From positions 1-64,000 of the forward strand of contig NZ_JACSET010000010.1 in NCBI RefSeq assembly GCF_014334325.1: DNA of 64,000 nt, written 5' to 3'. A model generated the notes under the pieces. That model made no database searches, was not told the origin of the DNA, and saw only the letters and a list, made by a program, of their open reading frames with translations. The stretch's first letter is position 1. Each line of letters opens with the position of its first letter. Source of the stretch: Treponema sp. Marseille-Q4130. Its GTDB lineage: Bacteria > Spirochaetota > Spirochaetia > Treponematales > Treponemataceae. Position numbers and translations under genes: made by a program. Shown here in pieces: positions 1,293 to 5,142 of this stretch.

Positions 1293-2906
1293 ATGAGCAA
1301 ATATATACTCGTGACGAGCGGCGTATGTTCCAGTCTCGGCAAAGGTGTGGCATCCGCATCTCTCGGAAGTCTTCTCGAATGCAGCGGGCTTTCGATTTCA
1401 ATGATAAAATGCGATCCGTACATCAATCTCGACGCCGGAAACATCAGTCCGTTTCAGCACGGCGAAGTATATGTTACCGAAGACGGTGCGGAAACCGATT
1501 TGGATTTGGGCAATTTCGCGCGCTTTACGAGTGTCAATGTCGCCGAACACAACTGCATTACGATCGGAAAAATCTACAACCAAGTGATCCAAAACGAACG
1601 CGCCGGCAGGTATAACGGACGCACGGTACAGGTGATCCCGCACATCACCGACGAGATAAAGCGCAATATCCTTTCCGTCGGCGAACGTTCGGGGGCGGAC
1701 GTCGTCATCGTCGAAATCGGCGGTACCGTCGGAGATATCGAATCGATCCCGTATCTTGAAGCCGCACGGCAGCTCATTCACGAACTCGGCAAAAACGAAG
1801 TATGCGTCATCCACATCACGCTCGTGCCTGCGATTATCGGCGGTGAATTGAAAACGAAGCCGACGCAGCATTCGGTGAAACAGCTGCAGGAAGCGGGTAT
1901 CCAGCCGGATATCCTTTTGTGCCGCACCGCAAACGAACTCGATATGCCGCTCAGAAAAAAAATTGCGCTGTTCTGCAACGTTGCCCCCGATGCGGTTTTT
2001 TCTTCGGTCGACGTACAGAAATCGGTATACGAGCTTCCGGTCATTTTTCACAAAGAAGGCTTCGATGCGCGGGTGCTCAAAAAGCTTGCGCTCACCGCCG
2101 AACGCTGCAATATCCGCCCGTGGACGGCATTCCTTGAAAAGCTCAATGCCTGCGGCCCCGCCGTGTGCATCGCCGTCGTCGGCAAAAAAGATTACCTTGA
2201 CGATTGCTATAAATCGGTACGCGAATCGCTGTTTCACGCCGCGGTTACGCAGTACGGCGCCGAGCTGAAACTCCGCAAAATCGACGCGGAAACGCTCGAA
2301 AGCTGCAAAAACGAAAAGGAGATAGCGGCGGCGTTCAAAGACGTCGACGGTATCGTCGTGCCCGCGAATTACGGGCAGCGCGGATTTCTCGGTCTCCTCG
2401 TTGCGGTAAAATATGCGCGTGAAAACGATATACCCTATCTGGGTATCGATTTGGGTATGCAGCTTATGGCGATCGAAACGGGACGTTCGCTGTGCGGCTG
2501 GGCGGATGCGGACAGCACGGAGTTTATACAAAACAGCACTCACGCGATCATCAGTTTGCCGGAAGAACAGACGGGGCTTTCGGCTGCCGGTACGATGAAG
2601 CTCGGTGCGGGAACCGTCCGCCTCATCAAAGAGACGAAGCTTGCCGGCATCTACAAAAAGCTTACGATCATCGAACGGCACCGCAACAAGTACACGTTCG
2701 ATAAAAAATACACCGCCGATATGACGGAGCACGGTCTCATCACGTCCGCGATTTCCGAACCGGACAACAGTACCGAAGCGTTCGAATGGAAGGATCACAG
2801 GTGGGGCATCGGCGTGCAGTATCACCCCGAATTCGTTTCCCGACCGATGAAACCGCATCCGCTTTTCGTTTCGTTTATCGGAGCGGCGCTCGGTAAAAAA
2901 CAATGA
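1293..2906 (+). CDS. pyrG: CTP synthase with Cys-to-Asp change in the glutaminase site
   Basis: CTP synthase makes CTP from UTP and ATP with ammonia, normally released from glutamine by its C-terminal class I amidotransferase domain. At 537 aa the length is normal. The synthase half is well conserved (SSLGKG P-loop near residue 14, DPYINLDAG, ETDLDLG, KTKPTQHSV). In the amidotransferase half the nucleophile motif GICLGMQ reads GIDLGMQ, with Asp at residue 386, and the oxyanion-strand PGGFG reads PANYG. The later His-Glu motif (HPEF) is kept. The sequence therefore predicts loss of glutamine hydrolysis and ammonia dependence; that is inference. It starts an operon whose next gene overlaps its stop (ATGA). 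Confidence 0.95.
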   Translation: MSKYILVTSGVCSSLGKGVASASLGSLLECSGLSISMIKCDPYINLDAGNISPFQHGEVYVTEDGAETDLDLGNFARFTSVNVAEHNCITIGKIYNQVIQNERAGRYNGRTVQVIPHITDEIKRNILSVGERSGADVVIVEIGGTVGDIESIPYLEAARQLIHELGKNEVCVIHITLVPAIIGGELKTKPTQHSVKQLQEAGIQPDILLCRTANELDMPLRKKIALFCNVAPDAVFSSVDVQKSVYELPVIFHKEGFDARVLKKLALTAERCNIRPWTAFLEKLNACGPAVCIAVVGKKDYLDDCYKSVRESLFHAAVTQYGAELKLRKIDAETLESCKNEKEIAAAFKDVDGIVVPANYGQRGFLGLLVAVKYARENDIPYLGIDLGMQLMAIETGRSLCGWADADSTEFIQNSTHAIISLPEEQTGLSAAGTMKLGAGTVRLIKETKLAGIYKKLTIIERHRNKYTFDKKYTADMTEHGLITSAISEPDNSTEAFEWKDHRWGIGVQYHPEFVSRPMKPHPLFVSFIGAALGKKQ

Positions 2907-3487
2907 CGCCGAACCTTTTTACGGCCGGTGCCGTTTTGTGCTGTTGGCTGTTTTTTTCGGCCGGCTGTTCGCTGAAATATTCCGACGGAAAAAAAAACGT
3001 CGAATCGGAAGTGCCCGAATTCGTTTTTGCAAACGCAGATTTTTCTCGGTGGGAAAAAAATAAAAAGACGCTTTCGATGCGCGCGCGGACGCTCGAACAG
3101 TATAAGGGCGGCAGCACCTATGCGGATTCGGTTTCGTTTACGGCCTATGCGGACGACGGGAGTGCCGAAACCGAGGGCTCGTGCGGATTGGTCGCATTCG
3201 ATTCGAAGCAAAAAATCTATTCGCTTTACGACGGGATCGAACTTACGAATGAACCGAGGGGCGTAACGATTTCGGCGGACGAACTGCGCTGGGACGGAAA
3301 TACCGAACAGCTTACGAGCCGCCGCACCGATACGATCACGATGAAAAAAAACGGTACGGTCGTCCGCGGTTCGGGATTTTCCGCAAGCGGCGTAAGTAAC
3401 CGTTTCGTATTTACCGGCGCCGTGTCGGGAACGGTCGAAACCGACGAAGATGCGGAGGAAGGCGGCGATGCGCAAAGCCGGCAATAA
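2903..3487 (+). CDS. lptC: LptC-like lipoprotein, lipid export bridge component
   Basis: A 194-aa LptC/YrbK-like protein. It begins with a hydrophobic segment ending in FFSAGC, so it is probably lipid-anchored rather than having the usual LptC transmembrane anchor. The rest is a run of beta strands with the LptC pattern (DGIELTNEPRGVTISADELRW). In the Lpt system LptC links the inner-membrane LptB2FG pump to the periplasmic LptA bridge. It overlaps pyrG by 4 nt (ATGA) and is followed at once by lptA- and lptB-like genes, which supports the call. Classical LPS is lacking in the best-studied treponemes, so the lipid carried is uncertain. Confidence 0.75.
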   Translation: MTPNLFTAGAVLCCWLFFSAGCSLKYSDGKKNVESEVPEFVFANADFSRWEKNKKTLSMRARTLEQYKGGSTYADSVSFTAYADDGSAETEGSCGLVAFDSKQKIYSLYDGIELTNEPRGVTISADELRWDGNTEQLTSRRTDTITMKKNGTVVRGSGFSASGVSNRFVFTGAVSGTVETDEDAEEGGDAQSRQ

Positions 3488-4409
3488 AACGCGTATAATC
3501 GTATTATTAATTTTATACGTTGTCGCTTCTATGCTCCCCGCGTGGTCGGAGCGTATTACGTTTTCCGCAAACAGCATGACGGGGACGGCCGGCAATACGT
3601 CCGATACGACAACTCTTTCGGGCAGCGCCTACGTGCTCACGTCGTCTATGGAAATCGCCGCCGATTCGATTACGATGAGCGGAAAAAATTTCCGCTACAT
3701 CGAAGCCGACGGAAACATCACCGGAAAAAATATCGAAGCGAATATGGAATTCACGTGCGGGCGTCTTTCCTACGATCGCGAAACGAAGATCGCGACGCTC
3801 AAAGACAACGTACATCTTGCCGACACGGAAAACGGCGTATCGGTCGACGCGCAGCTTATCGAATACAATCAAAATACCGACATCGCGCGAATTCAAATCG
3901 GTATAACGATCAAACAAAAGGACAATGTCTGTTCGAGTGCGTATGCCGTATACCGCAAAAAAAATCAAATGCTCGAAATGAGCGGCAACTCGCAGATCAC
4001 GCAGGGCGAAGATACGTTCCGCGCGCAGGAGATAACGCTGAATCTCGATACGCAGCAGATTACGCTCGATGGCCGCGTCAAAGGTTCCGTCGTCGACGAT
4101 AAAAGCGCCGAGCCGGATAAAACCGAAAAAAAAGATTCGGTTGTGAGCGATGAAATCGATACGGCAGGAGACAACGCATCAGGCGAAGACGACGCACCGC
4201 CCGATGGAATGACGCCTCCCGGCAAAGTGCCCGGCGCAGTGCAGGATAAAGCTGCAAGCGGCGCGGAAAACGCAGCAAACGCTCCAATCGATGTACGCGA
4301 GCGCGGCCGCAAAAACGATACGGCATCCGACCTTTCAAAAGACGATGTTCCGCCCGATACGCTTTCACGTGCGAAGACGGGCGGCGGCAAACGGGGGATG
4401 GATGACTGA
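3468..4409 (+). CDS. lptA: LptA/OstA-like periplasmic protein with long acidic tail
   Basis: A 313-aa protein: signal peptide (IIVLLILYVVASMLPAWS), then an OstA/LptA beta-jellyroll of repeated strands (GNITGKNIEANMEFTCGRLS, LKDNVHLAD) to about residue 210. A tail of about 100 residues follows, rich in Asp, Ala, Pro and Lys and probably disordered. LptA forms the periplasmic bridge of the lipid export system. I chose ATG 3468 because AGGAAGG lies at the right distance before it; an earlier in-frame ATG at 3450 overlaps lptC further. The tail is not typical of short LptA proteins. Confidence 0.78.
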   Translation: MRKAGNKTRIIVLLILYVVASMLPAWSERITFSANSMTGTAGNTSDTTTLSGSAYVLTSSMEIAADSITMSGKNFRYIEADGNITGKNIEANMEFTCGRLSYDRETKIATLKDNVHLADTENGVSVDAQLIEYNQNTDIARIQIGITIKQKDNVCSSAYAVYRKKNQMLEMSGNSQITQGEDTFRAQEITLNLDTQQITLDGRVKGSVVDDKSAEPDKTEKKDSVVSDEIDTAGDNASGEDDAPPDGMTPPGKVPGAVQDKAASGAENAANAPIDVRERGRKNDTASDLSKDDVPPDTLSRAKTGGGKRGMDD

Positions 4410-5142
4410 CGAAATGCGGCACGTATTGCGGGTTTCAAGTTTATATAAATCATTCGGCAAAAAACGCGTCGTGCAGGGCATCGATTTTTCGATGGGCACG
4501 GGCGAAGTGCTCGGACTTCTCGGACCGAACGGTTCGGGCAAAACGACGACCTTTTACATGATCGTCGGATTTTACCGTCCGACTTCGGGCGACGTCTTTC
4601 TCGACGGAGAGAGGATCACGGTGCTCCCGATGTACAAGCGCGCGCGGCTCGGCATTTCGTATCTGCCGCAGGAACCGTCCGTGTTTAAAAAGCTGACGGT
4701 GGAAGAAAATATTTGGGCGATCCTTGAAACGCGGCGCGATCTTTCTGCCGGCGAAAAAAAGATGCGGCTCGAACAGCTTATAAGCGAATTCGATATCGGA
4801 AGGATCAGAGATCAGCAGGCGATCACGCTTTCGGGAGGAGAGCGTCGGCGTACCGAAATCGCCCGTTCGCTTGCAATAGAGCCGAAGTTTTTGCTGCTCG
4901 ACGAACCCTTTGCGGGGATCGACCCGATCGCGGTTGCGGACATCAAAGGTATGATAAAGCTGCTTTCCGAGCGCGGTATCGGCATCCTCATCACCGATCA
5001 CAACGTGCGCGACACGCTTGAGATCACGCACCGCGCGATCATCATCAATAACGGTCAAATCATGATGCAGGGCACGAAACAGGACATCCTCGATTCATCC
5101 GTTGCCCGCGAAATCTATCTCGGCAAAGATTTTTCGATGTAA
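4402..5142 (+). CDS. lptB: LptB, ATPase of the lipid export ABC transporter
   Basis: A 246-aa ABC ATPase with Walker A GPNGSGKTT, Q-loop YLPQEPSVFKKLT, signature LSGGERRR, Walker B LLLDEPFAGID and switch His in ITDHNVRDTL. LSGGERRRTEIAR and the DHNV H-loop are typical of LptB. It powers extraction of lipid from the inner membrane together with LptF/LptG, which are not in this window. The start at 4402 overlaps the end of lptA by 8 nt and has GGGGGA upstream. Longer upstream in-frame starts would overlap lptA heavily. Confidence 0.9.
   Translation: MTDEMRHVLRVSSLYKSFGKKRVVQGIDFSMGTGEVLGLLGPNGSGKTTTFYMIVGFYRPTSGDVFLDGERITVLPMYKRARLGISYLPQEPSVFKKLTVEENIWAILETRRDLSAGEKKMRLEQLISEFDIGRIRDQQAITLSGGERRRTEIARSLAIEPKFLLLDEPFAGIDPIAVADIKGMIKLLSERGIGILITDHNVRDTLEITHRAIIINNGQIMMQGTKQDILDSSVAREIYLGKDFSM

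Follow-up and report, generated by a model that had tools for sequence, protein, structure and literature searches.

CTP synthase (PyrG) is regarded as an enzyme driven by glutamine and gated by GTP, for which ammonia is a side substrate. Canonical PyrG proteins (TIGR00337; E. coli, 1S1M; T. thermophilus, 1VCO) have the same two-domain architecture, fold, synthase-site residues and HPE motif as the Treponema paralogue described here, but the latter is without the nucleophilic Cys and without the oxyanion Gly352, has several GTP-site residues replaced and carries Asn at the position of L109. In CPS1, an inactive class I glutamine amidotransferase (GATase) domain was kept after the catalytic Cys had become Ser294, and the enzyme takes ammonia (PMC4655335, excerpt). 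The paralogue is likewise Cys-less, with its GATase domain kept under selection. In contrast, CPS1 is another enzyme and is switched by N-acetylglutamate, whereas the paralogue has Asp or Asn at the Cys position, an altered GTP site and a use of ammonia that we infer from sequence. The NAD synthetase family holds both ammonia-only and glutamine-using forms (PMC3376133, excerpt), but its ammonia-only forms are without a glutaminase domain, whereas the paralogue keeps the domain. A model for a CTP synthase C-terminal-related (seleno)protein (PRK06186; NF004836), 228 positions long and confined to the C-terminal region, matched the C-terminal half of our protein at 89 bits, far below its cut-off of 260. 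Among the titles and abstract openings of the open-licence PMC literature that we searched, there was no natural glutaminase-dead or ammonia-only CTP synthase and no Treponema PyrG paralogue.

The paralogue lies in a 64,000-nucleotide stretch of DNA from Treponema sp. Marseille-Q4130 (the window). Its gene and altered motifs are listed below, with percentages referring to the 74 non-redundant full-length sequences of the paralogue clade.

1293..2906, forward strand: PyrG paralogue (D-type), an uninterrupted open reading frame of 537 aa with an intact synthase half and a GATase half predicted to be glutaminase-dead.
1440..1445, forward strand: N50-I51 at the position of E. coli T51-M52 (GTP cleft); N in 79% and I in 82% of clade sequences.
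1614..1616, forward strand: N108 at the position of E. coli L109 (loop L4 above the GTP/NH3 cleft); Asn in 100% of clade sequences.
2361..2375, forward strand: PANYG (residues 357-361) at the oxyanion/lid L11 junction, by alignment; PGGFG in canonical enzymes (E. coli G351, G352, F353).
2448..2450, forward strand: Asp386 (GAT) at the catalytic Cys position (E. coli C379), by translation and alignment.
2685..2690, forward strand: N465-K466 at the position of E. coli H469-R470; Lys replaces R470 in 98% of the clade, whereas 97-100% of the other groups have Arg.
2823..2831, forward strand: HPE (511-513), with the His and Glu of the triad kept; H and E each in 100% of clade sequences.

Positions 2445-2453 are the I-D-L codons of GIDLGMQ. 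In an alignment to E. coli K-12 PyrG (L139), D386 fell on C379, A358, N359 and Y360 fell on G351, G352 and F353, and H511 and E513 fell on H515 and E517. The Asp for the catalytic Cys and the PANYG in place of PGGFG, both reported in a preliminary description of this DNA, are thereby confirmed. An AlphaFold2 model predicted a full-length CTP synthase fold (mean pLDDT 87.6) and placed D386 at the nucleophile elbow, after the strand 382-385 and before the helix 387-399. The Cys-His-Glu triad is incomplete, with Asp386 for Cys and with His and Glu present, and the oxyanion Gly-Gly of PGGFG is absent; G352 is N or S in 98% of clade sequences. The score of the protein against TIGR00337 was 638.9 bits, above the cut-off of 462.75, so that misannotation as a 'glutamine hydrolyzing' CTP synthase is likely.

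A search of the genome for a second pyrG, as had been suggested earlier, revealed a canonical Cys-bearing PyrG on contig 11 (G000:C11:78483-80087; L001). It has GICLGMQ and PGGFG, is 44% identical to the window protein and is one of four class I GATase matches in the genome, both PyrGs included. The cell therefore need not rely on the window copy for glutamine-driven CTP, and the possibility that the window copy is its sole CTP synthase is ruled out. A second PyrG was present in all 31 of the paralogue genomes that are at least 95% complete (of at least 99); none was seen in five paralogue-bearing drafts of the genus (65-92% complete). Elsewhere in the family, seven near-complete genomes (94-99%; G112, G116, G142, G034, G007, G065 and G074) had no PyrG match. 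Over the whole family, genomes without a match numbered 27 of 274 by either protein query and 30 of 274 by PF06418; the near-complete ones may depend on cytidine salvage.

To place the two copies, 179 frames were reduced to 142 rows by dropping partial and identical rows before residues were counted. The tree of these 142 rows grouped the paralogue as a single clade (SH-aLRT 100), set apart a clade of Cys-bearing PyrGs from related spirochaetes, here called native relatives (94; one of 35 rows with Ser), and united the second copies in a third (99). The paralogue was found in at least 99 of the 274 genomes of the family Treponemataceae, one of which (G278, a 50% match) was assigned to the clade by tree. 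The DNA pattern GI[D/N]xGMQ matched in 94 of these 99. Four of the other five were translated: G105 has Gly, G211 has Asp and an H for the Q, G144 has Asp and an unread residue at the Q, and G278 has Glu; the fifth, G129, stands outside the residue tally. Among the 74 clade rows, the Cys position was Asp in 86%, Asn in 10%, Gly in one and Glu in one, and Cys in none. By comparison, 34 of 35 native relatives have Cys (the other has Ser), as do all 29 second-copy rows. The comparison of spirochaete PyrG proteins proposed in the preliminary description thus places Asp or Asn across the clade, and loss of the Cys is apparently a clade-wide feature of single origin. Since Asp, Asn, Gly and Glu all occur at this site, a catalytic role for Asp386 is disfavoured, and it is unlikely to be a new catalytic residue.

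Some relatives carried variants of their own. A PyrG from a spirochaete MAG outside the clade (L099:612-2210) has Ser at the catalytic Cys (GISLGMH), possibly an independent Cys loss. The native copy L106:8001-9593 has HAE for HPE and GMH for GMQ, and the native copy L103:1669-3264 has GMH for GMQ. A Cys-bearing native-type PyrG (L157; G086:C130) lies on a 3.3 kb contig in genus g32, where all other genomes with a PyrG match have the second-copy type by score, and is possibly contamination.

The genes downstream of the window copy were informative as to which PyrG is resident.

2903..3487, forward strand: LptC-like gene, by synteny and PF06835 (20.2 bits, just below the cut-off of 21).
3450..4409, forward strand: LptA/OstA-like gene, by PF03968 (42 bits) and synteny.
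4291..5142, forward strand: LptB-like ABC ATPase gene, by PF00005 (123 bits) and synteny.

pyrG and lptC overlap by 4 bases in the window, at the stop of the former and the start of the latter. By tblastn, of the 40 paralogue rows whose downstream flank reaches 2.5 kb or more, all had lptA and lptB and 39 had lptC; the 34 remaining paralogue rows, whose flanks are shorter, all had lptC downstream. In 32 of 35 native relatives, at least one of lptC, lptA and lptB followed downstream in the same orientation, the three exceptions being one row without a hit, one with an opposite-strand hit and one with 246 bases of flank. None of the three genes was downstream in any of the 29 second-copy rows (two with less than 1 kb of flank). 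By this shared neighbourhood, the altered gene is the resident copy and the canonical copy is of another lineage. A recent duplication within the genome was rejected on the separate clades and different neighbourhoods of the two copies. A YihY-like membrane protein gene was directly upstream of 13 of 14 A-type second copies (see below), L001 included, and was missing there in all 15 second copies of other types that were compared. A promoter scan was uninformative (6 sites against 5.0 expected).

We defined a conserved column as one that matches E. coli and is at least 85% conserved among both native relatives and second copies (n=163), and a changed column as one kept in less than 30% of the clade. 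By these definitions, 19 of the 163 columns were changed. No change was found in the 28 conserved synthase-site columns, a list compiled by us, which includes the gate residues P54, H57 and V60; the lowest retention that we noticed among them was 86%, at H193. Together with the kept HPE, this bears out the earlier statement that the synthase half and HPE remain. In the GTP-site set, drawn from PMC9138612 (excerpt), 6 of 11 conserved columns were changed (T51, M52, G352, T438, R440 and R470, the last at a position that faces the guanine of GTP), compared to 13 of 152 other columns (Fisher p=0.00036). E68, R356, G357, G360 and R468 are kept in the clade, and T438 is still Thr in the window protein. 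Applied to the native group, the same contrast gave one changed column, and applied to the second-copy group it gave seven, all of these columns lying outside the GTP set. One of the seven is K306, which we take to be near the cleft. L109 is outside the GTP count; it is L in 91% of native Cys relatives and is not conserved among second copies. In the glutamine pocket, the clade keeps G351 (about 80%; Ala in the window protein), L380, Q383 (97%), E403 (100%), Y471, H515 and E517. The loss thus appears to be wider than the Cys, with part of the GTP activator site altered too.

Published mutants bear on the same positions. In E. coli, G352P made glutamine-dependent CTP formation undetectable and left almost full activity with NH4Cl, and L109A lowered the glutamine-dependent kcat 3.7-fold and barely altered the ammonia-dependent kinetics (PMC9138612, excerpt). 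The same excerpt gives two L. lactis variants. T431V (E. coli T438) lowered GTP activation 104-fold, with the ammonia kcat up 1.2-fold and the Km up 1.7-fold, and R433M (E. coli R440) lowered GTP activation 12.7-fold and the ammonia kcat 2-fold. The clade changes therefore seem to sit where laboratory mutations harm synthesis by way of glutamine and GTP but leave synthesis from ammonia largely intact, although most of the clade residues differ from the laboratory variants. Two entries for outside ammonia have been put forward in the literature. PMC8325340 (excerpt) describes a cleft between the glutaminase site and the tunnel that is covered by GTP, suggests it as the entry for outside ammonia and reports that GTP inhibits ammonia-dependent synthesis. 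PMC11211670 (excerpt) holds that outside ammonium enters via the GAT pocket, and cites work in which a DON-bound prokaryotic enzyme still used ammonium.

Selection was estimated as median NG86 dN/dS for each half, from pairs that are not independent, with dS a simple estimate and G278 excluded. The values for the synthase and GATase halves were 0.046 and 0.089 in the clade (95 pairs), 0.139 and 0.248 in native relatives (90 pairs) and 0.087 and 0.122 in second copies (9 pairs). The GATase half is under purifying selection and does not look decayed, in agreement with the earlier remark that the rest of this domain is retained.

We consider it somewhat probable that the window gene encodes an ammonia-only, GTP-uncoupled CTP synthase that stands beside a canonical one. 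This reading draws on the residue changes, the single clade, the synteny, the conservation and the second copy, all of which were read from the sequences. The window gene would be the resident, vertically inherited PyrG of Treponemataceae. The family would have gained a second, canonical PyrG from another lineage, and afterwards the resident copy would have lost its glutaminase nucleophile and oxyanion Gly, with its GTP activator site altered, once, in the ancestor of the clade. As the ATP/UTP amidoligase site and the ammonia gate are kept, the protein would most likely make CTP from UTP, ATP and free ammonia, with no use of glutamine and no control by GTP. The way in for ammonia might be the cleft that lies under GTP in canonical enzymes, or else the idle GATase pocket. 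The residual GATase domain may keep the fold and the cleft in shape and may still respond to a bound amino acid as a signal, while the canonical copy would provide glutamine-driven, GTP-activated CTP. The preliminary description had argued that the enzyme should not use glutamine and would need ammonia. Loss of the nucleophile and oxyanion Gly beside a complete synthase site is consistent with this, and ammonia is still the best reading, but the second canonical PyrG and the wider change at the GTP site had been missed. Glutamine synthetase and glutamate dehydrogenase family matches are present in the genome, so no glutamine shortage is evident, and such a shortage as a reason is unsupported.

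Several observations count against parts of the ammonia-only reading. Nucleotide binding would account for the conservation of the synthase residues as well as catalysis does, and the triad His and Glu, E403 and Q383 are conserved beyond the needs of a dead pocket. The five kept GTP-site residues, and the Thr at T438 of the window protein, speak against GTP uncoupling. Were the paralogue a mere extra source of CTP, its absence alongside B-type second copies (see below) would be left unaccounted for.

The main rival, which is compatible with the ammonia-only reading and which we regard as a tentative possibility, is that the paralogue acts with a particular type of second copy, in mixed tetramers or filaments or as a regulator, whether or not it makes CTP itself. 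Second copies fall into type A (mostly in genomes with the paralogue), type B (mostly in genomes without it) and a group basal to A from genomes without it. Within the genus, the 81 genomes with the paralogue comprised 73 with A, 1 with B, 5 without a second copy and 2 with partial copies, and the 104 genomes without it comprised 2 with A (drafts, 69% and 84% complete), 91 with B and 11 with partial copies; the genomes are not independent, and the class was set by search score against L001 and tabulated by hand, with a tree for a subset of rows and partials left out. On a tree of the second copies (74 rows), the paralogue clustered strongly (5 changes, with no shuffle of 500 as low). On an rpoB tree, built from 25 of 30 chosen genomes, its clustering was poor (7 changes; 85 of 500 shuffles as low for genomes with the paralogue, D+, and 38 of 500 for those without, D-). 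By eye, there were about four to six independent switches, with B in and A and the paralogue out. In G110, a one-contig genome, 1.3 Mb separates the A gene from the paralogue, so their association is not accounted for by linkage, and the distances of A and D, given rpoB, had a partial r of 0.58, from 8 genomes only.

The exceptions also bear on this rival. In G278, a B-type genome, the paralogue with Glu at the Cys site has a long branch (1.7), and all 13 of its checked synthase-site residues are kept. The sole D+ genome of the genus with B, G224, was counted as D+ in the A/B table and in both tree tests. Its paralogue stretch is 98% identical to that of G154 over 2,963 bases, compared to 78-81% identity between their rpoB loci, so G224 may be misbinned or its paralogue may have been transferred. 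Asn replaces H118 in 48 of 51 second copies from paralogue genomes (all but that of G011 and the B-type copies of G224 and G278); among those from paralogue-free genomes it does so in 5 of 36, namely the A-type ones. H118 is presumably needed for glutamine-dependent synthesis in E. coli; a search of open-licence text for H118A gave no match. These patterns would fit a partnership with A. Against it, A occurs without the paralogue in five examined genomes (G060, 99% complete; G061, 94%; and the drafts G067, 63%, G132, 69%, and G241, 84%), so A does not need the paralogue. Moreover, the synthase halves of paralogue rows and second copies have a mean identity of only 52%, the genomes are not independent (about four to six switches), and B may simply render the paralogue redundant.

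A more specific form is rather doubtful: a split system in which a glutaminase-dead, GTP-blind isoform would depend on A, through mixed oligomers or a division between ammonia and glutamine, and in which a single B could replace the pair. Complementing subunits, with a dead synthase in the A-type partner, are unsupported, the checked synthase-site residues of A being kept except for Asn at H118 and, in about a third, Arg at K223. They are also disfavoured by G060 and G061, where A with Asn118 occurs without the paralogue.

It is improbable that the protein is a non-catalytic pseudo-enzyme with a structural role, for example as a filament former, whose synthase site only binds nucleotides. CTP synthase filaments reportedly shape cells in Caulobacter. 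Filament formation by CTP synthase is independent of catalytic activity (PMC5405848, excerpt), and the gene is dispensable: lptC, lptA and lptB were present in all nine examined genomes without the paralogue, and tblastn found no PyrG in the 1.3 to 4.9 kb upstream of lptCAB in any of the nine. Retention of every conserved synthase-site column, gate included, and the low synthase dN/dS argue against such a role. New chemistry in the GATase pocket, with Asp/Asn-His-Glu binding or acting on another ligand, would be in keeping with the complete conservation of His, Glu and E403 despite the Cys loss, but the variety of residues at the Cys position means that no single side chain is required, and we consider this very unlikely. 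The loss of a catalytic residue could in principle reflect sequencing error or a decaying pseudogene, but this is hardly credible: the same state recurs in about 100 genomes, GIDLGMQ is also found in the T. socranskii records L033 and L091 and in L115 (97%), which rejects chance and assembly or sequencing error, and the unbroken frame and purifying selection (dN/dS of 0.046 and 0.089 by domain) reject a pseudogene.

If the ammonia-only reading is true, the clade would be the CTP counterpart of CPS1. It would also offer a natural test of models that give GTP two roles, activation of the glutaminase and closure of the entrance for ammonia.
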